This document shows positions 1 through 64,000 of a DNA stretch of 64,000 nt, piece by piece. The stretch spans positions 558,001-622,000 of the forward strand of contig NZ_CP042862.1 in assembly GCF_008001015.1 (NCBI RefSeq), given 5' to 3'. The notes under the pieces were generated by a model, which was not told the origin of the DNA, searched no databases, and saw only the letters and a list, made by a program, of their open reading frames with translations. How positions within the stretch are numbered: position 1 is the stretch's first letter; each line of letters begins with the position of its first letter. The DNA comes from Serinicoccus profundi (GTDB lineage: Bacteria > Actinomycetota > Actinomycetes > Actinomycetales > Dermatophilaceae). A program made the translations under genes and the position numbers.

Positions 1-860
1 AGCCTCGCCGAGATCGGCGGCACGGGCGTCTTCGCCTCGGCCCTGCGCGACGCGTTGCTCGACGGGCGCATCGACCTCGCCGTGCACTCGCTCAAGGACC
101 TGCCGACCGCGCCGGCCGACGGTCTCGTGGTCGCTGCCGTGCCCGAGCGGGAGGACCCGCGCGACGTGCTCGTCGCCCGCGACGACCTCACCCTGGCCGA
201 CCTGCCCGCGGGAGCGGTCGTCGGCACCGGGTCACCGCGCCGCGCCGCCCAGCTGCGGCTGCTGCGCCCGGACCTGGAGATCCGCGACATCCGCGGCAAC
301 GTGGACTCGCGGATCCGGATGGTGCATGACCAGGTGCTCGACGCCGTCGTCCTGGCCCGGGCCGGGCTGGCTCGCCTGGACCGCCTCGCCGAGGCCACCG
401 AGGTCCTCGACCTCGACACCATGCTGCCCGCCGCCGGGCAGGGAGCGCTCGCCGTCGAGTGCCGCGCGGACGCCCCCGACCTCGCGGCCCGCCTCGCCGA
501 GGCCCTCGAGCACCCGGCCACCCGGACCGCCGTCGACGCCGAGCGTGCGGCGCTGGCCGCGCTCGAGGCCGGCTGCACGGCCCCGTCGGTGCGCTCGCCG
601 AGCTCTCGGGAGCCGACGAGCGCCGCAGCGGCGACGGCATACCCGACCCCGGCGCCGCCCACCCCGGCGGGCGGGCGCCCGCCACCCTCACCCTTCACGC
701 GTTCGCGGCCCTGGACACCGGGGCCCAGCGACGTGTGGCGACCGGCGCGAGCGATGCGCCGGAGGAGCTGGGCCGTGCCATGGCCGAGCTCCTGCTGAAC
801 CGTCCCGACCCGACCGGCCTCGTCGCCGCCGGGTCACACACACCGGAGTCCGACCTGTGA
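1..860 (+). CDS. hemC: Porphobilinogen deaminase (hydroxymethylbilane synthase), 5' end outside window, apparent frameshift
   Basis: Cytoplasmic heme-pathway enzyme that polymerises four porphobilinogens into hydroxymethylbilane. The frame is open from base 1, and the family motifs [29 protein letters not shown] and [10 protein letters not shown] are present. The cofactor-binding cysteine lies at bases 574-576 in the context AGCTAP. Directly after it, near base 585, the frame breaks. The expected continuation VGALAELSG is in the +3 frame from base 585 and runs to the TGA at 858-860, so one G appears to be missing. About 60 N-terminal residues lie outside the window. It heads the heme operon and its stop overlaps the next start (GTGA). 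An essential gene broken by one base suggests a sequence error, but a real mutation cannot be excluded. Confidence 0.92.
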
Positions 861-2500
861 GCACCGACGCCGCCCCCGTCCACCTGACCCCCGTGTCCGC
901 GCCGCCCATCGCGGCCGCCCGCGTCGCCTTCGTCGGCGCGGGACCCGGAGACCCCGGCCTGCTCACCGTGCGGGCGCGCGACTACCTCGCGGTCGCCGAT
1001 GTCGTCGTCGTCGACGCCGCCCACCGGGAGGAGGACCTCCGCCCCCTCATCAGCGAGGACACCCAGGTCGTGCGCACCGTCCGCGGCGAAGAGGGGCCGG
1101 CCCTCACCCCCGCCGCCCGCTCCAAGCTCCTGGTGCGGACCGCGTCCGCCTTCGACGACCCCACCCACCTCGTGGTCCGGCTGCTCGTCGACGAGGTCTC
1201 CGCGGGCTCGCTCGTCGACGAGGCGCGGGCCTGCCACGACGCCGGGGTCGCCTTCGAGATCGTCCCGGGCGTCAGTGCCGCCTGGGCCGTGCCCGCCTAC
1301 GCCGGGATGCTGCCCGACGGCCAGCGCGGGCAGGTCCACGTCGTCGACGCCGCCGACAACGGGGTGGACTGGTCGCACTCGGTCGCCGAGGACATCACCG
1401 TCGTGGTCCGCGGCACCCCGGGCCGGCTCCAGCGCGCCCTCCAGCAGCTGCTGCAGGCCGGTCGCCCGGGGGAGAGCCCGCTCGCCCTCACCGCCCACGG
1501 CACCACGACCACCCAGCAGACCCTCGTGACGACCCTGCAGGAGCTGCTCGACAACAGCTCCGACCTCGAGGAGGACGCCGTCGCCGTCGTGGGTCGACCG
1601 GTCGAGCTGCGCGCCGAGCTGTCCTGGTGGGAGTCCAAGCCGCTCTTCGGCTGGTCGATCCTCGTGCCGCGGACCAAGGAGCAGTCGGGGCCGATGACCG
1701 ACCGGATCGCGGGCTACGGCGCGAGCGCCTCCGTGGTCCCCACGATCAGCGTGGAGCCTCCTCGCACGCCCCAGCAGATGGACCGCGCCGTCAAGGGTCT
1801 CGTGACCGGACGGTATGAGTGGATCGGCTTCACCTCGGTCAACGCCGTGCGCGCCGTGCGGGAGAAGTTCGAGGCGCTCGGGCTCGACGCCCGAGCCTTC
1901 GCGGGCCTCAAGCTGGCCGCGGTCGGCGGGGTCACCGCGGAGGCGCTGCGCGAGTGGGGTCTGGAGCCCGACCTCGTGCCGGACGGCGAGCAGTCCGCCC
2001 GTGGCCTGCTGGAGTCCTGGCCGCCCTTCGATGAGGTACTCGACCCGATCAACCGGGTCTTCCTGCCGCGTGCCGACATCGCCACCGACACCCTCGTGGC
2101 GGGCCTGGAGGCGATGGGCTGGGAGGTCGACGACGTGACGGCCTACCGCACCGTCCGCGCGGCGCCCCCCGCCGCGCCGGTGCGTGAGGCCATCAAGGGC
2201 GGCGCCTTCGACGCCGTCTGCTTCACCTCCTCCTCCACCGTCCGCAACCTCGTGGGCATCGCCGGCAAGCCGCACCCCACCACGATCGTCGCCTGCATCG
2301 GGCCCGCGACCGCCAAGGCGGCCGAGGAGCACGGTCTGCGGGTGGATGTCGTGGCCCCCGAGCCGAGCGCGGCCAGCCTCGTCGACGCCCTGGCCGAGCA
2401 CACCCGGGGGCTCATGGCCGAGGCCCAGGCGCAGGGCGAGGAGTTCGTCCGCCCGAGCCGGCGCAAGCCTGCCCCCCGGCGCGCACGGTCGCGCCGGTGA
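857..2500 (+). CDS. hemD: Uroporphyrinogen-III methyltransferase-like / uroporphyrinogen-III synthase fusion (HemD)
   Basis: A 547-residue two-domain protein of the actinobacterial CobA-HemD fusion type. The N-terminal half (about residues 22-265) is a tetrapyrrole methylase fold with the motif [10 protein letters not shown] at residues 27-36. The usual YDxLV motif is replaced by VDAAH, so methyltransferase activity is uncertain. The C-terminal half (about 265-535) matches uroporphyrinogen-III synthase ([46 protein letters not shown]), which closes hydroxymethylbilane to uroporphyrinogen III. The protein ends in a basic Arg/Pro tail. The GTG at 857 overlaps the hemC stop and was chosen for that coupling; the upstream open frame is a shadow of hemC. 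It overlaps hemB by 4 nt. Confidence 0.93.
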
Positions 2501-3489
2501 CCGCATACACCCGACCGCAGGAGCGACCGCGGCGGCTGCGCTCGACGCCCGCCCTGCGCCGGCTGGTGGCGCAGACCCGGCTGCACCCGGCCGAGCTCGT
2601 GCTCCCGGTCTTCGTCCGCGACGGCATCGAGGAGCCGCAGCCGATCCGCTCCATGCCCGGGGTCGTGCAGCACACGCCGACGAGCGTGGTGCAGGCCGCC
2701 CGGGAGGCGCGCGCCGCCGGGGTGGGCGGGATCATGGTCTTCGGGGTGCCGCGGCCGGAGGACAAGGACGCGACCGGACAGGTCGGCCTGCGGGCGGACG
2801 GCGTGCTCAACGCCGCGCTGCGGACCCTGCGCGAGGAGCTCGGGGACGAGACGGTGCTCATGAGCGACCTGTGCCTGGACGAGTTCACCGACCACGGGCA
2901 CTGCGGGGTCCTGGATCAGCGGGGCCGGGTCGACAACGACGCCACCCTGGAGATCTACGCCGAGATGGCGATCGCCCAGGCCCGGGCCGGAGCCCACGTC
3001 GTCGGACCCAGCGGGATGATGGACGGCCAGGTGCAGGTGGTGCGCGAGGCGCTCGACGGGGCAGGGCATCAGGACGTCGCCGTCCTCGCCTACACCGCGA
3101 AGTACGCCAGCGCCTGCTACGGCCCGTTCCGCGAGGCCGTGGCCTCGACGCTCACCGGTGACCGCACGACCTACCAGCAGGACCCCGCTAACCGCACCGA
3201 GAGCCTGCGCGAGCTTCGGCTCGACCTCGAGCAGGGCGCCGACATGGTCATGGTCAAGCCGGCGCTGCCCTACCTCGACGTGCTTGCTGATGTCGCCGCG
3301 ACCGCGGACGTGCCCGTGGCGGCCTACCAGGTGAGCGGGGAGTACGCAATGATCGAGGCGGCCGCCTCCCAGGGACTCCTGGACCGGGACCGTATGGTGA
3401 TGGAATCGTTGACGTCGATCCGCCGAGCAGGGGCTCAGGTGGTCCTCACGTACTACGCGACGGAGGCGGCGCGACTCCTAGGAGGGTGA
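2497..3489 (+). CDS. hemB: Delta-aminolevulinic acid dehydratase (porphobilinogen synthase)
   Basis: A 330-residue enzyme condensing two 5-aminolevulinate molecules into porphobilinogen. The two Schiff-base lysines are visible: Lys202 in [12 protein letters not shown] and Lys254 in [12 protein letters not shown]. The metal loop reads [14 protein letters not shown]. The middle zinc cysteine of the zinc-dependent enzymes is an Asp here, pointing to the magnesium/potassium-dependent class. The GTG start at 2497 overlaps the hemD stop by 4 nt, and a MarR gene follows 6 nt after the stop. It belongs to the hemC-hemD-hemB operon. Confidence 0.97.
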
Positions 3490-3495
3490 TGGGGC

Positions 3496-4016: not shown

Positions 4017-5339
4017 ATGACCGTCCCGCCCGTGAACCACCCTGACGACGCCCCCGCCTCCCGCGCCCTCCTCGACCGGGCCCGGGCCGTCATCCCCGGC
4101 GGGGTGAACTCCCCGGTGCGGGCCTTCCGTTCGGTCGGCGGCACCCCGCGATTCATGGAGCGGGCGCAGGGGCCGTGGCTCTGGGACGCCGACGGGCGCC
4201 GCTACCTCGACCTCGTGTGCTCCTGGGGCCCGATGATCCTCGGGCACGCGCACCCCGACGTCCGCGCCGCGGTCGCCGAGGCCGCGGCCGACGGTTTCTC
4301 CTTCGGTATGCCCACCGCCCGGGAGGTCGCCCTCGCTGAGGAGATCGTGGCCCGGGTGGAGCCGGTCGAGCAGGTGCGCCTGGTCAACTCCGGCACCGAG
4401 GCGACGATGAGCGCCATCCGGCTGGCCCGCGGGTTCACCGGCCGCTCCACGGTCGTGAAGTTCGCCGGTTGCTACCACGGCCACGTCGACGCGCTCCTGG
4501 CCTCCGCCGGCTCGGGTGTCGCGACCTTCGGCCTCCCGGACAGCCCCGGGGTCCCGGCCTCGGCCGCCTCGGAGACGATCGTCCTGCCCTACAACGACCT
4601 CCCCGCGCTGGAGGCCGCCTTCGCCGAGCGCGGCAGCGAGATCGCCGCCGTCATCACCGAGGCCGCCGCCGGCAACATGGGGGTGGTGCCCCCGGCGCCC
4701 GGGTTCACCGACGCCCTGCGCCGCCTCACCCGGCAGCACGGCGCCCTCCTCGTGAGCGACGAGGTGATGACCGGCTTCCGCTGCTCGCGCTCGGGGTGGC
4801 TCGGGCTGGAGGGCGTGCCGGAGGGCGGCGCCCCCGACCTGTTCACCTTCGGCAAGGTCATGGGGGGCGGCTTCCCGGCCGCGGCCTTCGGTGGCCGGGC
4901 CGACGTCATGGCCCAGCTCGCCCCCGAGGGCCCCGTCTACCAGGCCGGCACGTTGTCCGGCAACCCCCTCGCGTCGGCGGCCGGCCTGGCCACCCTCCAA
5001 CGGTGCACCGACGAGGTCTACCAGCGCCTCGACGAGGTCAGCGAGGCGCTCGCCGGTGCGGTGACCGACGCCTTCACGCGGCACGGCATACCCCACCGGA
5101 TCCAGTGGGCGGGGTCGATGTTCAGCGTCTTCTTCCGCGAGGGCGCGGTGCACGGCTACGACGAGGCCAAGGACCAGGACACCGCGCTCTTCGGCCGGTT
5201 CTTCCACGCCATGCTGCGGCGCGGCGTGCACCTGCCGCCGAGCTGCTTCGAGTCGTGGTTCGTCTCGGCCGCGCACGACGACGAGGCGGTCGAGCACGCG
5301 GTGCGGGCCATCGAGGACAGCGCTGCCGAGGTCGCCTGA
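4017..5339 (+). CDS. hemL: Glutamate-1-semialdehyde 2,1-aminomutase
   Basis: A 440-residue PLP-dependent class-III aminotransferase-fold enzyme that makes 5-aminolevulinate from glutamate-1-semialdehyde in the C5 heme pathway. Diagnostic motifs are [18 protein letters not shown] at the N-terminus, [16 protein letters not shown], the substrate loop [25 protein letters not shown], and the PLP lysine Lys280 in [14 protein letters not shown]. The length is normal. The ATG at 4017 is supported by the TAGGCT hexamer just upstream. The codon for Ile in HGIPHR is the very rare ATA, inside a copy of the GGCATACC word discussed in the findings. Confidence 0.98.
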
Positions 5340-5386: not shown

Positions 5387-6097
5387 ATGTCTGGAGCCGA
5401 CGGTCTGCCCCCCAGCGACGGCACGCCGCGGACCCTGCACGACGGCAGCCCGGTCACCCTCGTGCACGTCGTGCGCCACGGTGAGGTGCACAACCCCGAG
5501 CGCATCCTCTACGGCCGGCTCCCCGGATACCACCTCTCCGACCTCGGGCAGCAGATGGCGCGGACGGCCGCCGACCACCTGGCCGACCGCGACATCCGCC
5601 GGGTGGTGTCCTCGCCGCTGGAGCGGGCGCAGGAGACGGCCGCGCCGATCGCGGCGGCCCACGGCCTCGACGTCGCCTCCGACGAGCGCTTCCTCGAGAG
5701 CGGCAACATCTTCGAGGGGGAGCGGGTGGACCGCCGGATGCTCGCCGAACCACGGCACTGGCCGGCCTACGTCAATCCCTTCCGCCCGTCGTGGGGGGAG
5801 CCCTACACCGAGATCGCGACCCGGATGCGGTCCGGACTGGAGGACCTGCGCGAGCAGGTCGAGGGCTACGAGGGGGTCGTCGTCAGCCACCAGCTGCCGA
5901 TCTGGACGCTGCGCCGCGCGATTACCGGCCGGCGCCTCTGGCACCACCCGCGACACCGTGAGTGCAGCCTGGCGTCGGTGACGACCGTGCTCTTCCACGG
6001 GGTCCTGCCCGTGCGGGTGATGTATGCCGAGCCGGCCGCCCACCTGCTCCCGGCCGCGGTGGACGTGACCGGCACGGCGGAGCCGGTGGCGCCGTGA
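5387..6097 (+). CDS. Histidine phosphatase (phosphoglycerate mutase-like) family protein
   Basis: A 236-residue member of the histidine phosphatase superfamily. The catalytic phosphohistidine is His31 in VHVVRHGEVHNP, and SSPLERAQETA and VVVSHQLPIWTLR supply the other active-site Arg and His. The substrate is unknown. The same family member sits between hemL and the thioredoxin/ccs genes in mycobacteria (Rv0525 position), so it is part of a conserved heme/cytochrome neighbourhood. The start was chosen at the ATG 5387. A GAGAAT hexamer lies 7 nt upstream, so this too may be leaderless. The stop overlaps the next start (GTGA). Confidence 0.9.
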   Translation: MSGADGLPPSDGTPRTLHDGSPVTLVHVVRHGEVHNPERILYGRLPGYHLSDLGQQMARTAADHLADRDIRRVVSSPLERAQETAAPIAAAHGLDVASDERFLESGNIFEGERVDRRMLAEPRHWPAYVNPFRPSWGEPYTEIATRMRSGLEDLREQVEGYEGVVVSHQLPIWTLRRAITGRRLWHHPRHRECSLASVTTVLFHGVLPVRVMYAEPAAHLLPAAVDVTGTAEPVAP

Positions 6098-7499: not shown

Positions 7500-9167
7500 A
7501 TGGCGACCGACCAGCAGCCGCGGCAGCGGATCGAGGCGAGCTACCCCAAGGACCGCACCGCCCTGGGCGGGCCCCGCCTCGGGCCGGTCGGCTGGGCGCG
7601 CTGGGCGTGGCGGCAGCTGACGAGCATGCGCACCGCGCTCGCGCTGCTGCTGCTCCTCGCGGTGGCCGCGATCCCCGGCTCGATCTTCCCCCAGCGCGGG
7701 GTCGACCCGGTTCGGGTGCGGCGGTACTTCGAGGACGACCCCGACCTGGCCCGGTGGTTGGACCGGCTGGGGATGTTCGACGTCTACGCCTCGCCGTGGT
7801 TCGCCTCGATCTACCTCCTGCTCATGATCAGCCTCATCGGGTGCGTGCTGCCGCGGATGCGCCAGCACCTGCGGGCCGTGCGGGCGCAGCCGCCGCGGAT
7901 CCCCGCGCGCCTGGAGCGACTCCCGGTGCACCGCCGCGTGGTCCTGGACGCCGCGCCCTCCGAGGTGGTCGCGGCGGCGCGGGCCCAGCTGGCCGGGCGA
8001 CGCTACCGGCTGCGCGAGGAGGAGGACGGCGCCCTCGTCGTGGCGGCGGAGAAGGGCTTCGCCAAGGAGACCGGCAACCTGCTCTTCCACCTGGCCCTGC
8101 TCGGCATCATCGTCTCCGTCGCGGCTGGTCACCTCTTCGGCTGGCGCGGCGAGATCATCATCAAGGAGGGCGAGTCCTGGACCTCCGGGGCGGGCACCTT
8201 CGACACCCTCAGCCTCGGCCCGCTCGTCGACGAGGCCGACATCCCCGCCTTCACCGTCGAGCTCAACGACCTGGACGTGCAGTTCGAGGCCCAGGCACAG
8301 GGTGCGCAGTTCGGCCAGCCCCGGGTCTTCGAGGGGGTGGCGACGGTCGAGGCGGACGGCGCGGAACGCCAGGTCGACTTCGGGGTCAACCAGCCGCTGT
8401 CGGTCGGGCGCACCTCGATGTACCTCCTCGGCAACGGGTATGCCCCCGTCGTCACCGTCCGCGACCCGGAGGGGGAGATCCTCTTCTCCGACGCGGTGAC
8501 CTTCTTGCCGCAGGACAACACCTACGGCTCCGACGGTGTCATCAAGGTGCCAGCGGCCGACCCCGGGCTCGGCTTCGCCGGTGGCTTCCTGCCGACCATC
8601 TCGATGGGGGAGGAGACCGGCATGACCTCCTCCTTCCCGGGGCTGGTCGACCCGGCCCTGGTCCTCACCGCCTACGAGGGCGAGCTCTTCCCCGAGGGCC
8701 GCTCGCAGTCGGTCTTCGCCCTACCGACCGAGACCCTCGACCAGGTGATGCAGGACGACGGGGAGCCGAGCCGGATGCTGCTGCGCCCCGGCGACCAGCT
8801 CGAGATCCCCGGTGACCGCGGCACCATCGAGTTCGAGACGGTGATCCGGTGGGGCGGCATGCTCGTCCGGCACGACCCGGGCCGGCTCCCCGCCTTGGTC
8901 TTCGCGGGGACGGCCCTGGTCGGGCTCGTGCTCATGCTCGGGGTCCGCCGCCGCCGGGTCTTCGTCCGCGTCCACCCTGCCGCCGGGGATCCCGCGGCCC
9001 CGGGGGCGCGGCATACTGGACTGAGCGTCGCGGCCCTGCCCAAGGGCACCGACCCCGGCCTGGACGACCTGGTCGACGGGCTCCTCGAGCGAATCACCGA
9101 GGCCTGCGGGGGTCGGCTGATCGAGCCGGGCGACGACGCACGAGACAACAACGAGGATGAGGTATGA
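7500..9167 (+). CDS. resB: Cytochrome c biogenesis protein ResB (Ccs1)
   Basis: A 555-residue membrane component of the system II heme handling and ligation complex. It shows the ResB architecture: early helices (RTALALLLLLAVAAIPGSIF, then the segment around IYLLLMISLIGCVLP), a helix at NLLFHLALLGIIVSVAAGH, a large extracytoplasmic domain (about 225-455), a last helix near LVFAGTALVGLVLMLGV, and a cytoplasmic tail. It works with CcsB to export heme and attach it to CxxCH cysteines. ATG 7500 follows the ccdA TAG without a gap. Confidence 0.95.
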   Translation: MATDQQPRQRIEASYPKDRTALGGPRLGPVGWARWAWRQLTSMRTALALLLLLAVAAIPGSIFPQRGVDPVRVRRYFEDDPDLARWLDRLGMFDVYASPWFASIYLLLMISLIGCVLPRMRQHLRAVRAQPPRIPARLERLPVHRRVVLDAAPSEVVAAARAQLAGRRYRLREEEDGALVVAAEKGFAKETGNLLFHLALLGIIVSVAAGHLFGWRGEIIIKEGESWTSGAGTFDTLSLGPLVDEADIPAFTVELNDLDVQFEAQAQGAQFGQPRVFEGVATVEADGAERQVDFGVNQPLSVGRTSMYLLGNGYAPVVTVRDPEGEILFSDAVTFLPQDNTYGSDGVIKVPAADPGLGFAGGFLPTISMGEETGMTSSFPGLVDPALVLTAYEGELFPEGRSQSVFALPTETLDQVMQDDGEPSRMLLRPGDQLEIPGDRGTIEFETVIRWGGMLVRHDPGRLPALVFAGTALVGLVLMLGVRRRRVFVRVHPAAGDPAAPGARHTGLSVAALPKGTDPGLDDLVDGLLERITEACGGRLIEPGDDARDNNEDEV

Positions 9168-10192
9168 CGAACGCTTCCCTGGCGCAGGCCAGCGACATCG
9201 CGATCTGGGCCGCCATCGTGGTGCTGGCGGTGGCGATGCTCGCCTTCTCGGTGCACCTCGCGGTCACCGGCTCGGCGAGGACGCGGCGGGCCGAGCGGCC
9301 AACGCTGGACGAGCGGCGCGGCGTCCCGGTGTCGGCGGGCGCGAGCCGTCACGCCGACGCCGCCCACGCCCCTGACGTCCACGCCGCGGGTCCTGGCTCC
9401 GCCACCACGGTCCCCGCCTCACCCACCGACCGGCCCGCCCCCTCGCGCCGCTGGGGTGTCATCGGTCTCCAGCTCACCTGGCTGGGCACCTTCCTCGTCG
9501 TCGGCGGCACCGTGCTGCGCGGGCTGTCGGTGAGCCGGGCGCCGCTGGGCAACATGTACGAGTTCGCGCTCTTCACCGCCTCCTTCGCGCTCGTGGTCTA
9601 CTCCGCGTGGAGCCTGCGCAAGGACCGGCTCTGGCTGGGCGCCTTCGTCGTCGTGCCGGTGCTGCTCATCCTCGGCGCCGCCAAGCTGTGGTGGTACACC
9701 GAGGCCTCCCAGCTCATGCCCGCCCTCGACAACATCTGGCTGGTCATCCACGTGACCATCGCCACCTTGTCGATCGCCCTCTTCCTGCTCGGGGCGGCGG
9801 TGGCGACGGCCTACCTGCTGCGCGACAGCGCCCAGCGCAAGGGCGAGGTGCGGGGCTGGCTCGCGGCCCTGCCGGAGGCGGTGACGCTGGAGCGGATCAC
9901 CTACGGCGTGCACATCGTCGCCTTCCCGCTGTGGACCTTCGCCGTGATGTCCGGCGCCATCTGGGCCGAGCAGGCCTGGGGCCGCTACTGGGGCTGGGAC
10001 CCCAAGGAGACGTGGAGCTTCGTCATCTGGGTGGTGTATGCCGCCTACCTGCACGCCCGCGCGACCTCCGGATGGACGACGCGCAAGGCGACCTGGGTGG
10101 CCATCGCCGGCTTCGGCTGCATCGTGGTCAACTACACCGTGGTCAACCTGCTCATGACCGGGCTGCACTCCTACTCCGGGGTGGCCAATTGA
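9164..10192 (+). CDS. ccsB: Cytochrome c biogenesis protein CcsB (CcsA/ResC family)
   Basis: A 342-residue polytopic heme-handling protein, partner of ResB in system II. The WWD heme-binding signature is present as WGRYWGWDPKETWSFVIW near residue 275. The conserved histidines lie in LVIHVTIATLS and GVHIVAFPLWTF. The first about 95 residues hold one helix and a long variable, Pro/Ala-rich linker. The ATGA overlap with resB supports translational coupling. Confidence 0.96.
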   Translation: MTNASLAQASDIAIWAAIVVLAVAMLAFSVHLAVTGSARTRRAERPTLDERRGVPVSAGASRHADAAHAPDVHAAGPGSATTVPASPTDRPAPSRRWGVIGLQLTWLGTFLVVGGTVLRGLSVSRAPLGNMYEFALFTASFALVVYSAWSLRKDRLWLGAFVVVPVLLILGAAKLWWYTEASQLMPALDNIWLVIHVTIATLSIALFLLGAAVATAYLLRDSAQRKGEVRGWLAALPEAVTLERITYGVHIVAFPLWTFAVMSGAIWAEQAWGRYWGWDPKETWSFVIWVVYAAYLHARATSGWTTRKATWVAIAGFGCIVVNYTVVNLLMTGLHSYSGVAN

Positions 10193-10463: not shown

Positions 10464-11339
10464 TCAGGACAGGGCCAGACCCAAGGACAGCGCGACGGCA
10501 TACCCGAGCTGCAGGATGCCGGTCTGCGCCAGGGCCGGCAGCAGCGCGGGGCCGAAGGTGCCCTCGTCGGTGACGAGCCGGTAGGGCCTCCAGGCCAGGG
10601 GGGCGGCGAGCAGGCCGAGCAGGGCGAGGGGGTGGGCGATCGCCGCCAGCCCGACGGCGACGAAGGCCCCGATGAGCAGGCCGGCGTAGAGGCGGCGGGT
10701 GCGGCGGAAGCCGATGCGGACCGCGAGGGTGCGCTTGCCGGCCTCCCGGTCGCCCTCGAGGTCGCGCAGGTTGTTGGTCACGAGGATCGCGCTCGCGAGC
10801 AGGCCGCAGCCGATGGCGCCGCCGAGGGCGCCGAGGTCCAGCGCGTGCGCCTGGGTCCACGTGGTGCCGAGGACGGCGAAGAGGCCGAAGAAGACGAAGA
10901 CCATGACCTCCCCGAGACCGCGGTAGCCGTAGGGCTTGGACCCCCCGGTGTAGTGCCAGGCCGCCCAGAGCGCGAGCAGCCCCAGCAGGATGAGCAGCCA
11001 GGTGCCCGACAGCGCGACGAGCGCGAGCCCGGAGAGCCCCGCGCCGAAGAACGCCGCGAAGGCGGCGGTGCGGACGTTGGCGGGATCGGCGAGCCGCTGG
11101 CCGACGAGCCGGACCGGGCCGACCCGGTCCTCGTCGGTGCCGCGGATGCCGTCGGAGTAGTCGTTGGCGTAGTTGACACCGACCTGGAAGCCGAGGGCGA
11201 CGCACAGGGCGAGCACCGCGAGACCCAGGTCGGAGTCGCCGAGCGCGTGCGCCGCGGCGGTGCCGACGAGGACGGGGGCGACGGCGGCGGGGAGCGTGCG
11301 TGGGCGCGCTCCCTCGATCCACTGGGCGAGGGTTGCCAT
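10464..11339 (-). CDS. menA: 1,4-dihydroxy-2-naphthoate polyprenyltransferase
   Basis: A 291-residue UbiA-family membrane prenyltransferase that attaches the polyprenyl tail to dihydroxynaphthoate in menaquinone synthesis. Both Mg-pyrophosphate motifs are visible: NYANDYSDGIRGTDE near residue 60 and NNLRDLEGDREAGKRTLAVR near residue 180. Multiple hydrophobic helices fill the rest. It begins 11 nt after the small PLDc_N gene and shares an operon with menE; the menA-ccs convergence is conserved in actinobacteria. Confidence 0.96.
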   Translation of the reverse strand: MATLAQWIEGARPRTLPAAVAPVLVGTAAAHALGDSDLGLAVLALCVALGFQVGVNYANDYSDGIRGTDEDRVGPVRLVGQRLADPANVRTAAFAAFFGAGLSGLALVALSGTWLLILLGLLALWAAWHYTGGSKPYGYRGLGEVMVFVFFGLFAVLGTTWTQAHALDLGALGGAIGCGLLASAILVTNNLRDLEGDREAGKRTLAVRIGFRRTRRLYAGLLIGAFVAVGLAAIAHPLALLGLLAAPLAWRPYRLVTDEGTFGPALLPALAQTGILQLGYAVALSLGLALS

Positions 11340-11350
11340 GGGTATGCCTC

Positions 11351-18105: not shown

Positions 18106-18134
18106 ACCCCCATCCTAGCGAGGTAGCCGAATAA

Positions 18135-20075: not shown

Positions 20076-20122
20076 GGCATACCCCTCCTGAGAAGGCATT
20101 CGACCCGCGCCCCCATGCGGGA

Positions 20123-23117: not shown

Positions 23118-23155
23118 CGATCGTTAGGTCAAGTAATGAGATAAACTAACGATCG
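23118..23155. promoter_or_regulatory. 38-bp palindromic operator and promoter of the MarR-MFS operon
   Basis: Perfect 10-bp arms CGATCGTTAG and CTAACGATCG flank an 18-bp AT-rich centre with a probable -10 (TAAACT, 23142-23147). The palindrome ends 1 nt before the MarR ATG. Binding here would block transcription, which fits autorepression. Confidence 0.7.
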
Positions 23156-51267: not shown

Positions 51268-51717
51268 TCAGGAGGAGCCTGTGGAGGACGAGCCGGACCC
51301 GCGCGAGGATGTGGACGACGATGCGGAGCTGCCGGTGCCGCCCGTCGAGGTCGACCCGCTCGAGCCGGACCCACCCGAGCCGGACCCACCCGAGGTCGAG
51401 GTCCCGGAGGTGACGGAGCCCGAGGCCCCGGAGCCGCTCGAGCCGGAGCTCCCCGTGTCGGACCCGCCCTTGTCGCCGCCCGAGCCGGAGCCGCCGGAGC
51501 TGCCCGAGCCGCCCGAACCCCCCGAGGAGGAGCTGCCCGATCCCCGGGAGTCGGTGCGGTAGAAACCCGACCCCTTGAAGACGACCCCGACCGCGCTGAA
51601 GACCTTGCGCAGCCGACCCTCGCACTCGGGGCATACCGTCATCGCGTCGTCGGTGAAGGCCTGCTGGATGTCGAAGGCGTGACCGCAGTCCTTGCAGGCA
51701 TATGAATACGTGGGCAC
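51268..51717 (-). CDS. FmdB-family zinc ribbon protein with long Gly/Ser tail
   Basis: A 149-residue protein. Residues 1-45 are the FmdB zinc ribbon (PTYSYACKDCGHAFDIQQAF and MTVCPECEGRLRKVF, two CxxC pairs). Residues about 60-149 are almost pure Gly, Ser and Thr with scattered Asp, far longer than the serine-rich tails usual in this family. GTG 51717 was chosen because the domain begins VPTYSYAC. Its location next to the 5-formyl-THF cyclo-ligase region matches mycobacteria (Rv0991c), though here penicillin acylase intervenes. Confidence 0.88.
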   Translation of the reverse strand: MPTYSYACKDCGHAFDIQQAFTDDAMTVCPECEGRLRKVFSAVGVVFKGSGFYRTDSRGSGSSSSGGSGGSGSSGGSGSGGDKGGSDTGSSGSSGSGASGSVTSGTSTSGGSGSGGSGSSGSTSTGGTGSSASSSTSSRGSGSSSTGSS

Positions 51718-51777: not shown

Positions 51778-54462
51778 GTGTCCCGCCCCCTCTGGCAGCG
51801 TCTGGCCGTGCCGATCGCCGCGATCCTCGTGGTCGTGGTGGTCGCGACCGCGGTCATCGGGGTGGGTCTGACCCGGCGGGGTTTTCCCCAGGTCTCGGGG
51901 GAGCTGGAGGTGGCCGGTCTGAGCGGTGAGGTCGAGGTGATCCGCGACGACCTCGGCGTCCCGCACATCTACGCCGACACCGCCGAGGACCTCTTCCGGG
52001 CCCAGGGCTTCGTCGCCGCGCAGGACCGCTTCTTCCAGATGGACCTGCGCCGTCACATCGTCAGCGGTCGTCTCTCCGAGCTCGTCGGGGAGGGCGGGCT
52101 GGAGACCGACACGGTCATCCGCACGCTGGGGTGGCGGCGGGTCGCCGAGCAGGAGCTCTCCCTGCTCTCCCCGGAGGCGCGGACCTACCTGTCCGCCTAC
52201 GCCGCCGGCGTCAACGCCTACATCGACAGCCGTGGTGGCCCCTCGGCCATGGGGGTCGAGTACCCCCTCCTCGCCTCGAGCGCCCCCGGTTACACCGTGC
52301 GGCCGTGGGACGAGGTGGACTCCCTGGCCTGGCTCAAGGCGATGGCCTGGGACCTGCGTGGCAACTACGCGGACGAGCTGGCCCGGGGGCGCCTCGTCGG
52401 CCAGGTCTCCCTCGACCAGCTCGACGCGCTCTACCCCGACTACCCCTTCGACGAGCACCCGCCCATCCTCGACCGGAGCGAGTGGACGGCGCCGACGCCG
52501 CCTCCCGCGGGGGTCACGGACAGCCGGGGCGGCACCCGCGGCACGCTCCTCGCGCCGGTGCCCGGGCAGACGGACGCGGCCGACCTCGCCGGGCTGGGGG
52601 AGCCCGTCGCGCCGGACGGTCCGACGTCGGACGAGACGCACCAGTGGATGGCCGGGTCGGCGCAGGGGGCCTTCGACGACACGAGCACGGTCCTCGCGGC
52701 GGTGCCCGAGCTCATGGGTCACGGTGAGGGCATCGGCTCCAACTCCTGGGTCGTCTCCGGCGAGCACACCGCCTCCGGTATGCCGTTGCTCGCCAACGAC
52801 CCGCACCTCGCGATCTCCCAGCCCGGGATCTGGATGCAGAGCGGTCTGCACTGCCGGGAGCTGAGCGAGGAGTGCCCCTTCGACGTCACGGGGTTCACCT
52901 TCGCCGGCTTCCCCGGCGTGGTCATCGGGCACAACCAGTCGATCGCCTGGGGCTTCACCAACCTCGACCCGGACGTCACCGACTTCTACCTCGAGGACAC
53001 CGTGGAGGACACGGTGCTGCGCGAGGACGACTACGTCCCGATGGACGTGCGCACCGAGACGATCCGCGTCGCCGGGGGCGACGACGTGGAGATCGACGTG
53101 CGCGAGACCTCGCACGGCCCCATCGTCTCCGACGTGCTCGAGGAGGTCGGGCGCATGGGCGACAACGGCCCGCTCGACGGCGTCCACACCTCCCGGGACT
53201 TCGAGGTGGCGCTGCGCTGGACCGGGCTGGAGCCCTCGCGCACCGCCGAGGCCGTCTTCGCGCTCAACGCCGCGACCGACTGGGAGGAGTTCCAGGGGGC
53301 TGCCGAGCTCTTCGCGGTCCCCTCGCAGAACCTGCTGTATGCCGACACCGAGGGCAACATCGGCTACCAGGCCCCGGGCCTGGTGCCCATCCGCCGCAGC
53401 TCCACCCACGCGACCCCGCCGGGGTTCTACCCCGCGCCGGGCTGGGAGGAGCAGTACGCCTGGCAGGGGTGGGTCGACTTCGAGGACCTCCCCTCGTCCT
53501 ACAACCCCGAGGACGGCATCGTCGTCGCGGCCAACCAGGCCGTCGTCCGCGGCTCGACGCCCTTCCTCACGACCGAGTACGACAAGGGCTACCGCTCCAC
53601 CCGCATCCTCGACCTGCTCCAGGAACGGCTCGGGGAAGGGCCGCTCACCAGCGCCGACATGAGCGAGATCCAGCTCGACGACACGAGCACCTTCGCCCTC
53701 GATGTCGTGCCCTACCTCACCGACGTCGAGCTGGACGGCGCGTTCTACACCGAGCCGCAGGACCTCCTCCAGGACTGGGACGGCAGTTCGCCGGCGCAGG
53801 GGGAGCAGGCCGCCGCGGCGGCCTACTTCTACGCGGTCTACGACAACCTGCTCGAGGCCGTCTTCGACGACGAGCTGCCCCCCGATCTCGGCGCGACCGG
53901 CAACTCCCGCTCGATGCAGATCATGGCCGAGCTCATGGCCTCCCCGGAGAGCGTCTGGTGGGACGACCAGCGCACACCGGGTGTCATCGAGTCACGTGAC
54001 GAGGTGCTGCGCAGCGCGCTCGTCGACGCGCGCCTGGACCTCACGCGGCAGATCTCCAAGGACCCCGGCGACTGGAGCTGGGGCCAGTTGCACCGTGCGC
54101 ACCTGCGGCACCAGGTGCTCGGTGAGGAGGGGGTGCCCGCCCTCGTGCAGGGGATCGTCAACCGCGGGCCCTACCCCGTCGCGGGCAGCAGTGCCATGGT
54201 CAACGCCATGAACTGGGACGCCAGCACCGGCAGCTTCGACGTCTCCTCGGCGCCCTCGATGCGGATGGTCGTCGACCTCGCCGACCTGGACGCCTCCACC
54301 TGGGTCAACCAGACCGGCACCTCGGGACACCCCTTCCACGCCAACTACGACGACCAGACGCAGGCCTGGCTCGAGGGGCGCACCTATCCGTGGGCCTTCA
54401 CCCGCGCCGCCGTGGAGGAGGCGGGCGTCCAGACCCTCATCCTGCAGCCCGAGGAGGGCTGA
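51778..54462 (+). CDS. Penicillin acylase family protein (Ntn hydrolase)
   Basis: An 894-residue exported or membrane-anchored amidase precursor. An N-terminal helix (AVPIAAILVVVVVATAVIGV-like, residues about 9-29) targets it to the membrane. The alpha-subunit part holds LGVPHIYADTAEDLFRAQGF and AQDRFFQMDLRRHIVSGRL. The autoprocessing nucleophile is Ser321 in GIGSNSWVVSGEHTASG, starting the beta-subunit. Further family motifs are LANDPHL, FPGVVIGHNQSIAWGFTNLD, GNIGYQAPG and VVAANQAV. It hydrolyses amides such as beta-lactam side chains or N-acyl homoserine lactones; the substrate is not predictable. It is monocistronic. Confidence 0.95.
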   Translation: MSRPLWQRLAVPIAAILVVVVVATAVIGVGLTRRGFPQVSGELEVAGLSGEVEVIRDDLGVPHIYADTAEDLFRAQGFVAAQDRFFQMDLRRHIVSGRLSELVGEGGLETDTVIRTLGWRRVAEQELSLLSPEARTYLSAYAAGVNAYIDSRGGPSAMGVEYPLLASSAPGYTVRPWDEVDSLAWLKAMAWDLRGNYADELARGRLVGQVSLDQLDALYPDYPFDEHPPILDRSEWTAPTPPPAGVTDSRGGTRGTLLAPVPGQTDAADLAGLGEPVAPDGPTSDETHQWMAGSAQGAFDDTSTVLAAVPELMGHGEGIGSNSWVVSGEHTASGMPLLANDPHLAISQPGIWMQSGLHCRELSEECPFDVTGFTFAGFPGVVIGHNQSIAWGFTNLDPDVTDFYLEDTVEDTVLREDDYVPMDVRTETIRVAGGDDVEIDVRETSHGPIVSDVLEEVGRMGDNGPLDGVHTSRDFEVALRWTGLEPSRTAEAVFALNAATDWEEFQGAAELFAVPSQNLLYADTEGNIGYQAPGLVPIRRSSTHATPPGFYPAPGWEEQYAWQGWVDFEDLPSSYNPEDGIVVAANQAVVRGSTPFLTTEYDKGYRSTRILDLLQERLGEGPLTSADMSEIQLDDTSTFALDVVPYLTDVELDGAFYTEPQDLLQDWDGSSPAQGEQAAAAAYFYAVYDNLLEAVFDDELPPDLGATGNSRSMQIMAELMASPESVWWDDQRTPGVIESRDEVLRSALVDARLDLTRQISKDPGDWSWGQLHRAHLRHQVLGEEGVPALVQGIVNRGPYPVAGSSAMVNAMNWDASTGSFDVSSAPSMRMVVDLADLDASTWVNQTGTSGHPFHANYDDQTQAWLEGRTYPWAFTRAAVEEAGVQTLILQPEEG

Positions 54463-54510: not shown

Positions 54511-55140
54511 TCACTCGACGGGGACGGCGCATACCCCGCTCGTCGGACGCAGCACCGCGTCGACGACGACGTCGTGCCCGGCCGCCGGCACCTGCGGCAC
54601 CACCTCGTGGTCGTGCAGGACGATGACGACCGGCGCCCCGGCGGAGAGCGTCCGCAGCGTGGGCAGCACGGTGTCGTAGTAGCCCCCGCCCTGGCCGAGC
54701 CGCACGCCGTCCCGCGACACCGCCAGGCCCGGCACGAAGGCGAGATCCACGCCCCCCAGGGCGACCTCCCCGAGGGGGGACCGGTCCGGATCCTCCAGGT
54801 CGGCCCAGTCGAGCCGGGGTCGTTCGAGGGTGAGCGGCACCAGCACCCTGACCCCCGCCGCGCGCAGCGCCGCGGTCAGCCCGTCGACCGGTGGCTCGGT
54901 GCGCATCGGCTCGTAGGCCGTGACCGTCATCCCGGCGACGTCAGCCCGGCCCCGGCTCGCGGCATACTGTCGCAGGTGCTCGAGGCCGGCGGTTCCCAGG
55001 GCGTGCGCGACACCGGCGCGCGCCTCCGGTGGCCAGCCGTCGACCAGCTCGCGGCGGGCGGCGCGGACGAGCGTCCGCCAGCTCGCCTTGTCGGCGGCGA
55101 CGTCGCCGCTGGGACGGTATGCGGGCAGCGGGTGACTCAT
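54511..55140 (-). CDS. 5-formyltetrahydrofolate cyclo-ligase
   Basis: A 209-residue ATP-dependent enzyme converting 5-formyl-THF to 5,10-methenyl-THF. Motifs: ASWRTLVRAARREL (ATP-binding basic helix), YEPMRTEPPVDGL, VLVPLTLERPRLDW, and the signature FVPGLAVSRDGVRLGQGGGY followed by YD. A CACAAT hexamer 8 nt before the ATG may give a leaderless mRNA. It is divergent from moeA with only 37 nt between starts. In mycobacteria galU lies between these two; it is absent here. Confidence 0.93.
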   Translation of the reverse strand: MSHPLPAYRPSGDVAADKASWRTLVRAARRELVDGWPPEARAGVAHALGTAGLEHLRQYAASRGRADVAGMTVTAYEPMRTEPPVDGLTAALRAAGVRVLVPLTLERPRLDWADLEDPDRSPLGEVALGGVDLAFVPGLAVSRDGVRLGQGGGYYDTVLPTLRTLSAGAPVVIVLHDHEVVPQVPAAGHDVVVDAVLRPTSGVCAVPVE

Positions 55141-55177: not shown

Positions 55178-56476
55178 ATGAGATCCGTCGACGAGCACCT
55201 GGACGCCGTGCTGGCTCAGATCGAGCCGGTCGCCACCGTGACCCTGCCGGTGCGCCGCGCGCTCGGGCTGGTCACCACGACCGACGTCCACAGCCAGGCC
55301 GACCTGCCGCGCTTCGACAACTCCTCGATGGACGGGTATGCCGTGCGCCGGGCCGACCTGGAGGGCGCCTCGGGCGAGAGCCCGGTCGTGCTGCCGGTCA
55401 CCGGGGACGTCGCCGCCGGGGACCAGGCGCGGCACGTGCTGGAGCCGGGGCAGGTGTGGCGGATCATGACCGGCGCCCCGATGCCCGAGGGTGCCGACGC
55501 CGTGGTCAAGGTGGAGGACACCGACGGTCACCCGCGCGAGCCCCAGCTGCGCGTCCACCCCGACGAGGGCGCCAACATCCGCCGCGCCGGTGAGGACGTG
55601 CGCACCGGCGACCTCGTGCTGCCGGCCGGCAGCCGGATCGGCGCGGGGGAGATCGCCGCGCTGCTCTCGGCGGGGATCCACGAGGTCGAGGTGATCGGAC
55701 CGGTCCGGGTGGCGATCCTGTCGACCGGGGACGAGCTCGTGCGCCCCGGCGACCCCGTCGGCCCCGGCCAGATCATCGACTCCAACGGGCCCATGCTCGA
55801 GGCGCTCGTCCGGGAGGCCGGGGCCTACGTCGTGCACGTCGGGCACCTGCCGGACGAGGAGAGCGCGACCACGCGGACGATCCACCGGATGCTCGACCAC
55901 GCCGACGTCATCATCACGACCGGCGGGGTGAGCAAGGGGGAGTTCGACATCGTCAAGAAGGTCCTCACCGGGCAGGGGTCGATGGAGTTCGTCGAGGTCG
56001 CCATGCAGCCGGGCAAGCCGCAGGGCTTCGGGGTGCTCGGGCGCCGGGACGTGCCGGTCTTCACCCTGCCGGGCAACCCGGTGAGCACGCTCGTGAGCTT
56101 CGAGGTCTTCGTGCGGCCCGCGCTGCAGCGGCGCGGCGGGCGGCGTGAGGGTGGTCGCGTGGCACGAGGGCTGGCGACGACCGGGTGGCGCAGCTCCCCG
56201 GACCGCCAGGCCTACACCCGGGTGCGCCTCGACCGCGACGCGACCGGGGAGTATGCCGTCTCGCCCGCCGGCGGGGCCGGCTCCCACCTCGTGGCCCCGC
56301 TCGCGATGGCCGACGCCCTGGCGGTGTCGGCGCCGGAGGCCACCGAGGTCACCGCCGGGTCCGAGGTGGAGCTGCTCCTGCTGCGCCCCCGCGCCGAGAT
56401 CGACGCGCGACTGGACGCCGAGGCGGAGCGCGACGCTGTCACGGTCGAGGCGGCCGGACGCCCGGGGTCGCGATGA
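55178..56476 (+). CDS. MoeA-type molybdotransferase / gephyrin-like Glp protein
   Basis: A 432-residue protein with the MoeA architecture: domain [23 protein letters not shown] and [17 protein letters not shown], the MPT-binding domain [50 protein letters not shown] and [15 protein letters not shown], and a C-terminal beta domain. It could insert molybdate into molybdopterin. In corynebacteria a MoeA paralogue in this position (Glp) binds FtsZ and the membrane protein GlpR. The SepX/GlpR-like gene three positions downstream makes a cell-division role likely here. Sequence alone cannot separate the two roles. It overlaps moaC by 4 nt. Confidence 0.93.
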
Positions 56477-56949: not shown

Positions 56950-57572
56950 GCTGGGCCTGGCCGACGCAGGTGCGGCACGTGCTGCCGGACGGGCGGCGGC
57001 TGGTCCTGCGGGGCCTGGGGCGCGCAGACCGGGCGGCGTGGGAGGACCTGCGGAGCCGCAACGAGGCGTGGCTGGCGCCCTGGGAGTCGACGACGCCCGG
57101 CGACCGCTCGGGCCGGCTGCCCTTCCACCAGATGCGACGGGTGCTGGACCGGGGAGCCCGCGACGGGATGCTGCTGCCCTTCGTCATCGAGGTCGACGGG
57201 CGTCTCGTCGGCCAGATGCAGCTCTTCGACGTGCTCTGGGGCGCGCGCCGTTCGGGCTGGGCCGGCTACTGGCTGGCCCGCGAGGCGACCGGTCGCGGGG
57301 TGGCGACGTGGGCGCTCGCCGCGCTCGTCGACCACGCGCTCCTGGAGGTCGGGCTGCACCGCCTCGAGGTGGCGATCCGGCCGGAGAACGCCGCCTCGCT
57401 CGCGGTGGTGGGCCGGCTCGGCCTCCCCGAGGAGGGCCGGCAACGGGGGCTCATGCACGTGGACGGCGGGTGGGCCGACCACCGCGCCTTCGCCGTGCTC
57501 GCCGAGGATCTGAGGCCCGGCGGGTATGCCCCCGGCGGGCTCGTCGCCCACCTCCACGGCCGCGCCGGCTGA
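56946..57572 (+). CDS. GNAT-family acetyltransferase (RimJ/RimL-like)
   Basis: A 208-residue N-acetyltransferase: [20 protein letters not shown] at the start, [20 protein letters not shown] with the acetyl-CoA loop, and [20 protein letters not shown] near the end. RimJ/RimL relatives acetylate protein N-termini, but the substrate here is unknown. The position between moeA/moaC and the SepX-like gene matches mycobacterial Rv0995. GTG 56946 overlaps the moaC stop. Confidence 0.92.
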
Positions 57573-58983: not shown

Positions 58984-59988
58984 ATGGCCGTTGACCTGAG
59001 AGGTCGCAGCCTGCTGTCCCTGGTCGAGGAGACGCCGGAGGAGATCCAGGCGCTGCTGGACCTCGCCGCCGAGCTCAAGGCGGCCAAGCGTGCCGGCACG
59101 GAGGAGCGACGCCTGGTCGGTCGTTCGATCGCCCTCATCTTCGAGAAGACCTCCACCCGCACCCGCAGCGCCTTCGAGGTCGCAGCCGCGGACCAGGGCG
59201 CGCACACCACCTTCCTCGACCCCAAGAGCACCCAGATCGGGCACAAGGAGTCGATCAAGGACACGGCGCGCGTGCTGGGCCGGATGTATGCCGCCATCCA
59301 GTACCGCGGCGCCGCGCAGGCCACCGTCGAGCAGCTGCACCGGTATGCCGGGGTGCCGGTCTACAACGGCCTCACCGACGAGTGGCACCCGACGCAGATG
59401 CTCGCCGACGCCCTGACCATGAGTGAGCACGTGGGCAAGCCCTGGGCGCAGATGTCCTTCGCCTACCTCGGGGACGCCCGCAACAACACCGGCCACTCGC
59501 TGCTGCTGCTCGGGGCCAAGCTGGGGTGCGACGTGCGGATCGGCGCCCCGGAGGGACTCCAGCCGGCCCCCAAGGTCGTGCGTCTGTGCGAGGAGGTCGC
59601 CGCCACCACCGGTGCCCGGCTGACGATCACCGAGGACCCCCGCGAGGCCGTCGCGGGCGTTGACGCCGTGCATACCGACGTGTGGGTGTCCATGGGCGAG
59701 CCGGCGAGCGCCTGGCAGGAGCGGATCGACCTGCTGCTGCCCTTCCAGGTGGACCGCGCGATGATGGAGGCGACCGGGAACCCGGGGGCGGTCTTCATGC
59801 ACTGCCTGCCGGCCTTCCACGACACCGACACCGAGGTGGGGACGCAACTCATGTCGACCAATCCGGAGCTCAAGAACGGACTCGAGGTGACCGACGAGGT
59901 CTTCGAGTCCGCGGCCAGCATCGTCTTCGACCAGGCGGAGAACCGTCTGCACACCATCAAGGCCCTCATGGTGGCGACGCTCGGATGA
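58984..59988 (+). CDS. argF: Ornithine carbamoyltransferase
   Basis: A 334-residue enzyme making citrulline from ornithine and carbamoyl phosphate. The carbamoyl-phosphate site is [14 protein letters not shown]; the ornithine site is [14 protein letters not shown]; further motifs are [20 protein letters not shown] and [14 protein letters not shown]. Its length and HDTDTE region resemble the long OTCase type also used catabolically (ArcB). No other arg or arc genes are near, so it stands apart from an arginine operon. A PH-domain gene overlaps its stop by 4 nt. Confidence 0.96.
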
Positions 59989-63228: not shown

Positions 63229-63236
63229 GGGAGGGC

Positions 63237-63824
63237 ACGGCATACCTCACGTCGCCAGCGACCATCTGCGACGCTCGGCTCTGCGACGCTCGGTGAGGAG
63301 GAGCGCGTGCACGGGTCCAATTCGGGTATGCCGCTGCCAGCGGTGAGGATGGGTGCGCGTGTACGGATCCTCTTCGGGTTTGCCGCGTCCAGCGGTGAGG
63401 ATGGGTGCGCGTGTACGGATCCTTCTCGGGTATGCCGCTGCCAGCGGTGAGGGGTCCGCGTGTACGGATCCTCCTCGGGTATGCCGCTGCCAGCGGTGAG
63501 GATCGCTGCGCGTGTACGGATCCTCCCCGCTGACGGCATACCTCCCGTCCCCGGAAGCCGTTGCCCGCGACCATCTGCGACGCTCGGTGAGGATGGGTGC
63601 GTGTGTACGGATCCTCCCCGCTGACGGCATACCCCCGTTCCCGGAAGCCGTCGCCGGCGACCATCTACGACGCTCGGTGAGGATGGGTGCGTGTGTACGG
63701 ATCCTCCCCGGGTAGGCCGCTGCTAGCGGTGAGGATGGGCGCGCGTGTACGGATCCTCCTCGGGTATGCCGCTGCCAGCGGTGAGGATGGGTGCGCCTGC
63801 ACGGATCCTCCCCACCGGCGAGGC
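63237..63824. repeat. Array of palindromic intergenic repeats (nine copies, 49-91 bp period)
   Basis: A gene-free stretch filled with repeats of GTGTACGGATCCTC. Copies begin at 63307 (variant), 63359, 63411, 63460, 63512, 63603, 63693, 63745 and 63797 (variant), giving spacings 52, 52, 49, 52, 91, 90, 52, 52. Short units contain CGGGTATGCCGCTGCCAGCG and end GGTGAGGATGGGTGCGC. Long units carry an alternative insert with GACGGCATACC and CGACCATCTGCGACGCTCGG. ATCCTC near the start of a unit can pair with GAGGAT near its end, and CCGCT with AGCGG inside, so each unit can form a stem. It lies between convergent genes. The minus-strand frames across it encode only repetitive peptide and are not annotated as genes. 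Confidence 0.9.
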
Positions 63825-64000
63825 TCAGGTCCAGAAGTCGAACCACATCCGCAGGTTCCAGGCCTCGCGCGGGATGGTGATGGCGGTGTGGACCGGCCAG
63901 TACCACGCGAAGGCGGCGATGGCGAGGGTGAGGTAGCCGATGACGACGACCGCGCCCCAGCGGCGCCGCTCCGGGCTCGCGTCGGCGCGGCCGAGCACGA
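63825..64000 (-). CDS. Probable dolichyl-phosphate-mannose-type protein mannosyltransferase, C-terminal end only
   Basis: Only the last 57 codons are in the window; the gene continues past base 64000. The visible end has one hydrophobic helix (WGAVVVIGYLTLAIAAFAWY) followed by WPVHTAITIP and a final aromatic, basic stretch AWNLRMWFDFWT. Such an RMW..W end after the last helix is characteristic of actinobacterial PMT-family glycosyltransferases. The same gene (Rv1002c) lies downstream of the SepX-like gene in mycobacteria. It is convergent with the membrane protein gene across the repeat array. Confidence 0.6.
   Translation of the reverse strand, partial: VLGRADASPERRRWGAVVVIGYLTLAIAAFAWYWPVHTAITIPREAWNLRMWFDFWT

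Follow-up and report, generated by a model that had tools for sequence, protein, structure and literature searches.

Iteration of a short word along the Serinicoccus profundi chromosome

The stretch of DNA analysed here, hereafter the window, comprises 64 kb (positions 558,001-622,000) of the single 3.476 Mb contig of the actinobacterium Serinicoccus profundi (genome G000 in the comparisons below), and is studded with a short word, GTATGCC (GGCATAC on the opposite strand), which is regarded here as a probable DNA-uptake-type word. A preliminary description of the window had claimed that this word is over-represented throughout, and counting bears this out, with 61 copies (33 on the + strand and 28 on the - strand) against 5.9 expected under a third-order Markov model. 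The shorter GTATGC/GCATAC, of which more than 50 copies had been estimated, occurs 71 times against 20.4 expected, and the extended form GGTATGCC 41 times against 2.4, all these expectations being themselves inflated by the word. Each of the 16 example positions then quoted is no more than 4 bases away from a copy. GTACGC, which had been described as scarcer than GTATGC, is found only 5 times, always on the + strand (at 3102, 3342, 6513, 53454 and 63117), with 7.0 expected.

The whole genome (3.48 Mb) behaves likewise, since GGTATGCC is present in 1,695 copies, 858 on the + and 837 on the - strand, against 24 (13 + 11) for a reversed-pattern control. This amounts, with both strands counted together, to about one copy per 2 kb, and the GTATGCC-based word to about one per 1.4 kb (0.70/kb). 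Genome-wide statements rest on counts and the reversed control, and the Markov test covers the window and a sample of 464 kb (13% of the genome) made up of the window and 20 stretches spread over the chromosome. The preliminary description had named two ways in which the word could turn out to be trivial, counts near the third-order expectation and an explanation by codon pairs, and the first is not the case either in the window or in the sample. From the sample, the consensus can be written as G-GTATGCC-G-(T/C), that is GGTATGCCG(T/C), with little information past some 10 bases, and the form GGTATGCCGT reaches 83 copies where 0.9 are expected. In being short, present in hundreds to thousands of copies and far above expectation, the word resembles the known DNA uptake sequences.

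Placement in genes, on strands and along the chromosome

Genes were predicted by a home-made GC-frame method, and the 349 genes of the sample contain 263 copies against 32 in synonymous-codon shuffles (265 against 32.2 in a repeat run with slightly different gene calls), so that codon pairs do not account for the word. Codon or codon-pair usage might be suspected because the most frequent frame, with 115 of the 261 copies in genes, specifies Tyr-Ala, but the 8-fold excess over the shuffles, the occupation of all six frames and the equal density between genes (0.73/kb) and within them (0.69/kb) leave this explanation next to no credit. The same applies to a dispersed mobile repeat, rejected because the flanks past about 10 bases are not conserved. 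A blind scan of 8-mers against synonymous shuffles ranks GTATGCCG first in the window's own genome and in five relatives (G430, G415, G243, G018 and G010), and GGTATGCC first in a further one, G007. In the corresponding 7-mer scan, the GTATGCC word is outranked by others in G243 and G018; in G020, with 404 copies genome-wide, it lies outside the top six of a scan of only 28 kb of predicted coding sequence.

As the preliminary description had stated, copies lie on both strands and both in genes and between them, and this spread over the whole chromosome (for the strands genome-wide, for the rest in the sample) is another property of uptake sequences. Strand sums over the 20 stretches are 58/58 for the first ten and 72/76 for the last ten, and no orientation bias along the replichores was found, the strands being near balance throughout, with the origin not located. 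Chi words and KOPS (FtsK-orienting polar sequences) are strand-biased. The word might instead be where a protein that organises the chromosome or acts in recombination binds (Chi-like, KOPS-like or the site of a nucleoid protein), and its density, genome-wide occurrence and conservation in place would agree with this. We regard this explanation as improbable, given the strand balance both genome-wide and, with no bias of note, in the 20 stretches, and given that relatives lose or replace the word. Furthermore, thousands of individually selected sites would presumably be hard to maintain without some form of drive.

Spacing is Poisson-like (coefficient of variation 0.98 over 304 gaps), and gaps below 100 bases number 18 of the 304 where about 22 are expected, 13 of these pairs being inverted and 5 in the same orientation. 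In Neisseria, close pairs of the uptake word serve as terminators; a comparable role was rejected here for want of any excess of close pairs.

The 61 copies of the window are listed in Table 1. The last of them belong to a region (63237-63861) of degenerate local repeats, spaced 49-52 and 90 bases apart, that carry GGATCC and several words in both orientations; the region may be a repeat element organised around the word.

Table 1. Copies of the word in the window, with coordinates counted from its first base
Feature	Position	Strand	Source
GTATGCC word	636..642	-	word listing
GTATGCC word	4306..4312	+	word listing
GTATGCC word	5085..5091	-	word listing
GTATGCC word	6022..6028	+	word listing
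GTATGCC word	8438..8444	+	word listing
GTATGCC word	9010..9016	-	word listing
GTATGCC word	10036..10042	+	word listing
GTATGCC word	10497..10503	-	word listing
GTATGCC word	11342..11348	+	word listing
GTATGCC word	12037..12043	-	word listing
GTATGCC word	14094..14100	-	word listing
GTATGCC word	15260..15266	+	word listing
GTATGCC word	15599..15605	+	word listing
GTATGCC word	16040..16046	-	word listing
GTATGCC word	18029..18035	+	word listing
GTATGCC word	18101..18107	-	word listing
GTATGCC word	20012..20018	+	word listing
GTATGCC word	20076..20082	-	word listing
GTATGCC word	20862..20868	+	word listing
GTATGCC word	21371..21377	-	word listing
GTATGCC word	23155..23161	+	word listing
GTATGCC word	24550..24556	-	word listing
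GTATGCC word	26452..26458	-	word listing
GTATGCC word	26799..26805	+	word listing
GTATGCC word	27449..27455	+	word listing
GTATGCC word	28747..28753	-	word listing
GTATGCC word	29985..29991	-	word listing
GTATGCC word	30004..30010	-	word listing
GTATGCC word	31821..31827	+	word listing
GTATGCC word	32387..32393	-	word listing
GTATGCC word	33062..33068	+	word listing
GTATGCC word	33487..33493	-	word listing
GTATGCC word	38314..38320	-	word listing
GTATGCC word	39841..39847	-	word listing
GTATGCC word	41087..41093	-	word listing
GTATGCC word	42162..42168	+	word listing
GTATGCC word	43242..43248	+	word listing
GTATGCC word	45120..45126	+	word listing
GTATGCC word	45906..45912	+	word listing
GTATGCC word	45954..45960	-	word listing
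GTATGCC word	47158..47164	-	word listing
GTATGCC word	47483..47489	+	word listing
GTATGCC word	47605..47611	+	word listing
GTATGCC word	49126..49132	-	word listing
GTATGCC word	49454..49460	+	word listing
GTATGCC word	51630..51636	-	word listing
GTATGCC word	52778..52784	+	word listing
GTATGCC word	53337..53343	+	word listing
GTATGCC word	54961..54967	-	word listing
GTATGCC word	55336..55342	+	word listing
GTATGCC word	56251..56257	+	word listing
GTATGCC word	57524..57530	+	word listing
GTATGCC word	59286..59292	+	word listing
GTATGCC word	59343..59349	+	word listing
GTATGCC word	63239..63245	-	word listing
GTATGCC word in local repeat array	63326..63332	+	word listing and repeat inspection
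GTATGCC word in local repeat array	63430..63436	+	word listing and repeat inspection
GTATGCC word in local repeat array	63479..63485	+	word listing and repeat inspection
GTATGCC word in local repeat array	63535..63541	-	word listing and repeat inspection
GTATGCC word in local repeat array	63626..63632	-	word listing and repeat inspection
GTATGCC word in local repeat array	63764..63770	+	word listing and repeat inspection

Conservation in place and origin of the copies

A syntenic 140 kb of chromosome, 91-111 kb of it alignable, was compared between G000, G040 and G007, the last two being closer to each other than to the first. From G000 to G040 the word is kept at 42 of 58 sites, against 2,272 of 5,443 (42%) for 7-mers permuted from the same letters (p 3e-6), and from G040 to G007 at 83 of 97 against 54% (p 4e-11); three further directions give 42/68 (control 44.5%), 43/60 (43%) and 82/111 (55%). 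At sites where tyrosine is encoded in both species, the rare codon TAT is retained within the word at 18 of 20 sites for G000/G040, 30 of 33 for G040/G007 and 16 of 19 for G000/G007, the corresponding figures elsewhere being 7 of 32, 9 of 26 and 13 of 38. Since TAT is retained far more often inside the word than outside, it is the DNA word itself, and not the protein, that is maintained. Together with the shuffles, the comparison between species thus reveals a maintenance beyond protein-coding demand, as is the case with uptake sequences.

A different origin would be mutational, with the word created by the decay of methylated GTACGCC through C-to-T change, or by a context-biased repair enzyme. 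Nine pooled word-bearing genomes contain 105 GTACGCC against a first-order expectation of 114 (0.92), whereas four pooled genomes without the GTATGCC word (two of which, G022 and G524, carry a replacement word) contain 114 against 53 (2.17), so that, relative to expectation, GTACGCC is about 2.4-fold rarer where the word is present, in line with the scarcity noted in the preliminary description. At two sites, moreover, the word is shared by G040 and G007 while G000 reads GTACGCC. This contrast fits GTACGCC as one convenient synonymous precursor. On the other hand, the GTACGCC pool of those four relatives (114 in 467 kb, or 0.24/kb) is too small for a word present at 0.70/kb, and GTACACC, the product that decay on the opposite strand would leave, is present in 18 copies in the 464 kb sample, no more than the 20 expected. 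The three gains that could be polarised come from GTGTGAC, GTAGGCC and GTGCGCC and none from GTACGCC, the other differences between species being 8 losses and 15 unpolarised, and copies, once they exist, are retained even where they impose a rare codon. Decay of methylated GTACGC was therefore rejected as the main source, and a mutational origin of either kind appears very unlikely. Several one-step neighbours that retain TAT are commoner in word-bearing genomes (GTATGCT is not), which is what decaying copies of the word would give.

Distribution, dialects and replacement words

A count over the order (396 genomes in 109 genera) finds hundreds of copies of GGTATGCCG in one family only, f1 of this survey, which we take to be the Dermatophilaceae, or Intrasporangiaceae in the wide sense; elsewhere at most 61 copies were counted, in a genome of 8.3 Mb. 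For GTATGCCG, 90 of the 159 family genomes (31 genera) have 322-4,724 copies, 10 have 150-299 and 59 fewer than 150. A survey across the phylum, with 198 genomes, gives at most 386 copies outside the family, these in a genome of 7.5 Mb. Rich and poor genomes coexist in three genera (g1, g17 and g127). By its ComEC domain, the closest named locus belongs to Serinicoccus chungangensis, with 91% identity. A tree of this domain (60 rows, many weak forks) nests word-less clades, such as those of Phycicoccus jejuensis and Intrasporangium flavum, among word-bearing ones, and the word was therefore likely lost in several lineages. Among the genus groups, g25 includes P. jejuensis (G501), g129 Flexivirga endophytica (G475), g19 Janibacter melonis (G096) and g23 Janibacter sp. 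Soil728 (G497), and the last two are called Janibacter-type here after these named members.

Like uptake sequences, the word has dialects among related species. According to flank logos resting on 21-323 copies per genome, the commonest base before the core GTATGCC(G) is G in the S. profundi genome, in G007 and in G537 (g16), C in G415 (g17), G430 (g115) and G010, and A in G018, and in G243 (g24) the word is extended to GCCGTATGCCGCTGG, about 15 bases. In this last genome the word is, unlike in S. profundi, about 7 times denser between genes (1.20/kb) than within them (0.17/kb).

In addition, other words take its place in some genomes. CTCCCTTCG has 97-886 copies in all 13 genomes of the Janibacter-type, all of which are poor in GTATGCCG, and at most 47 in the other 146 of the family. 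In one of the 13, G524, the 8-mer CTCCCTTC occurs 33 times against 1.9 in synonymous shuffles, in all six frames. The same genome contains, besides the CTCCCTTCG word, a palindrome, CCTTAAGG, placed only between predicted genes (8 copies, none genic), which looks like a repeat or terminator family. The second case is G022, the only one poor in GGTATGCC (38 copies) among 24 members of its genus counted, the others having at least 285; it has 1,070 copies of GTAGCGGC against 88-258 in 30 congeners, the reversed control being uninformative here because the reversed word is itself common. Of the word-less genomes scanned for alternatives (G482, G474 and 20 kb of G515), the candidates CCGTACGG, GCCGTACG and CGCCGTAC in G474 and CTGCGCGA in G482 were discarded as unconvincing, at only 1.8- to 2.9-fold over the shuffles.

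Such complementary words are expected if a specific reader changed its preference, and a changed methylase would equally produce them. This brings to mind HIP1 (GCGATCGC), a word very frequent in a clade of cyanobacteria, with exceptional genomes that lack it, and linked to two orphan methyltransferases (PMC4390886). A word of this kind, dependent on an orphan DNA methyltransferase or on some other factor of modification or repair, and devoid of any uptake role, would accommodate the replacements in the Janibacter-type genomes and G022 just as well. Unlike HIP1, a palindrome, the word of S. profundi is asymmetric, as its consensus makes plain; GTACGCC and GTACACC do not display a two-strand deamination pattern, and the association with Tad gene number described below is not predicted. 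Taken together this is weak evidence against the alternative, which is considered unlikely, although the least so of those weighed here.

Competence and Tad genes

The genes of the window's genome include, as in species with uptake sequences, a competence-type machinery. A comEA-comEC operon adjoins leuS and degV genes, and there are two Tad clusters (A and H in what follows). Cluster A, next to a gene that we take to be prfB, comprises TadA, TadB, TadC, Flp-like, TadE, TadF and TadG-like genes, and cluster H a TIGR03819 ATPase, two T2SSF proteins, a Rv3655c-type TadE and a Rv3654c-type pilin. A further TadE-type gene pair at 203,635-204,232 of the chromosome apparently marks a third Tad cluster; this pair is dispensable for the word, since in G415, which is rich in the word, TadE (PF07811) is matched in cluster A alone.

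ComEC itself, found in 155 of the 159 family genomes, is useless as a discriminator of the word. The other genes were surveyed in 80 of these genomes, hand-picked with their word status known and split 50/30 after the counts had been seen. Of the 50 considered word-bearing, 35 show strong and 9 moderate enrichment in GTATGCCG, and 6 have a replacement word. All 50 have at least three T2SSF and at least two TadA matches, whereas among the 30 word-less genomes 8 have two T2SSF matches or fewer and 7 a single TadA (Fisher p 2e-4 and 6e-4, respectively, with relatives that are not independent). The T2SSF contrast persists without the nine moderate genomes (0/41 against 8/30, p 0.0006) and by genus (0/30 against 5/19, p 0.006). 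The association is one-sided, and the counts were rejected as a full predictor of the word.

The word-less G474, a genome of one contig, offers a particular case. In its cluster A, tadA and tadB are missing and flp, tadE, tadF and a tadG-like gene remain, together with a remnant (L269, 10415-10612) that matches the end of tadC over 66 residues; a weak TadB match stems, as a recheck suggests, from a low-complexity part of the query. Its congeners G442 and G494 have 1,062 and 3,681 copies of the word, and cluster A is whole in G442.

A putative uptake word and its drive

From the sequences alone, we propose that GGTATGCCG(T/C) is a DNA-uptake-type self-recognition word for natural transformation, read through a Tad pilus and ComEA-ComEC, with a probability of roughly two in three. 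DNA carrying the word would be preferred by a receptor at the cell surface, for which a minor pilin of a Tad/Flp competence pilus is the likeliest candidate, and the pilus together with ComEA/ComEC would import this DNA, which would then recombine with the chromosome. As fragments with the word would be taken up more, copies born by mutation would spread and be kept by biased recombination, a molecular drive acting at thousands of places and on both strands. A change of receptor or the loss of the pilus would let the old word decay, and a changed receptor would build up a new one. Such a drive would explain the thousands of kept sites, the indifference to strand and gene, the dialects or other words, and the fact that every word-bearing genome examined reaches the Tad gene numbers given above. 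Of the three readings offered by the preliminary description, an uptake word fits best, because of the equality of strands, the equal density in genes and gaps, the restriction to one family, the dialects and replacements and the tie to a competence-type pilus; a Chi- or KOPS-like word is disfavoured by the strand balance, and C-to-T decay is not the main source.

Several observations weigh against the uptake reading. Machinery alone does not predict the word, since six word-less genomes (G482, G515, G453, G124, G466 and G080) have cluster A genes; the minor pilins of this cluster, which by analogy with ComP are the obvious candidates for the receptor, likewise occur in the word-less genomes examined, and ComEC is near universal, word-less genomes included. 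Even G474 has 6 T2SSF and 3 TadA matches genome-wide, two TadA places being among the matches listed, and a cluster A ATPase may lie elsewhere in its genome. The word-rich G427 (3,111 copies) has no TIGR03819 match over the cut-off, and cluster types are known for part of the genomes, among the matches listed. Nine of the 50 genomes counted as word-bearing are only moderately enriched (153-361 copies), G439 having 196 against 125 for its control. From G007 to G000 the word is kept at 42 of 79 sites, hardly above the control (47%), and the 304 gaps contain no excess of close pairs. Finally, the open-access literature searched yielded no paper on natural transformation or competence in Ornithinimicrobium or on an uptake sequence in Intrasporangiaceae.

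A 2025 paper (PMC12616744) states that, as far as is known, such uptake motifs are confined to two families, Neisseriaceae and Pasteurellaceae. The DNA uptake sequence of Neisseriaceae (PMC3630211; PMC5031613), read by the minor pilin ComP, likewise consists of some 10-12 bases, is abundant along the entire chromosome and has dialects among relatives. The Neisseria form ATGCCGTCTGAA (PMC5031613) even shares ATGCCGT with GGTATGCCGT, possibly by chance; a rough after-the-fact estimate puts the chance of this 7-base overlap at a few in a thousand. Unlike in Neisseriaceae, the hosts here are Gram-positive actinobacteria with Tad/Flp pili, uptake is putative and the receptors are candidates, close inverted pairs are not in excess, and unrelated replacement words exist within the family. 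The uptake signal sequence of Pasteurellaceae, for which ComN/PpdA is the predicted receptor (PMC12616744), is also genome-wide, of comparable length and with divergent dialects, but its sequence (AAGTGCGGT) is unrelated and its hosts are gamma-proteobacteria with another pilus type. Closer in machinery is Micrococcus luteus, whose transformation through Flp pili requires two tad clusters (tad-1 and tad-2, the latter with flp and a fused tadB/C) and ComEC (PMC4322843). S. profundi similarly possesses comEA-comEC and two Tad clusters, with no pairing of A and H to tad-1 and tad-2 implied. The term uptake sequence was not found in either of two papers searched on M. luteus, nor, by titles in the open-access literature, was any prior report of uptake sequences in Actinobacteria or Gram-positives; matches to the exact words were set aside as chance sequence matches, again judged by titles.

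On balance, it seems rather probable that this is a third, independently evolved system of uptake specificity, the first in Gram-positives and the first to rely on a Tad/Flp pilus as reader. It would be ancient throughout an actinobacterial family; the receptor would have switched on two or more occasions, bringing in CTCCCTTCG in the Janibacter-type genomes and GTAGCGGC in one Ornithinimicrobium lineage as new words, and losses would have recurred, partly along with those of Tad genes. If this is true, the preference for self-DNA would have arisen a third time, with another pilus, and the natural switches and losses of the word would offer tests of the co-evolution of receptor and word. In practical terms, adding the word would then be a key for transforming genera such as Terrabacter, Knoellia and Ornithinimicrobium.

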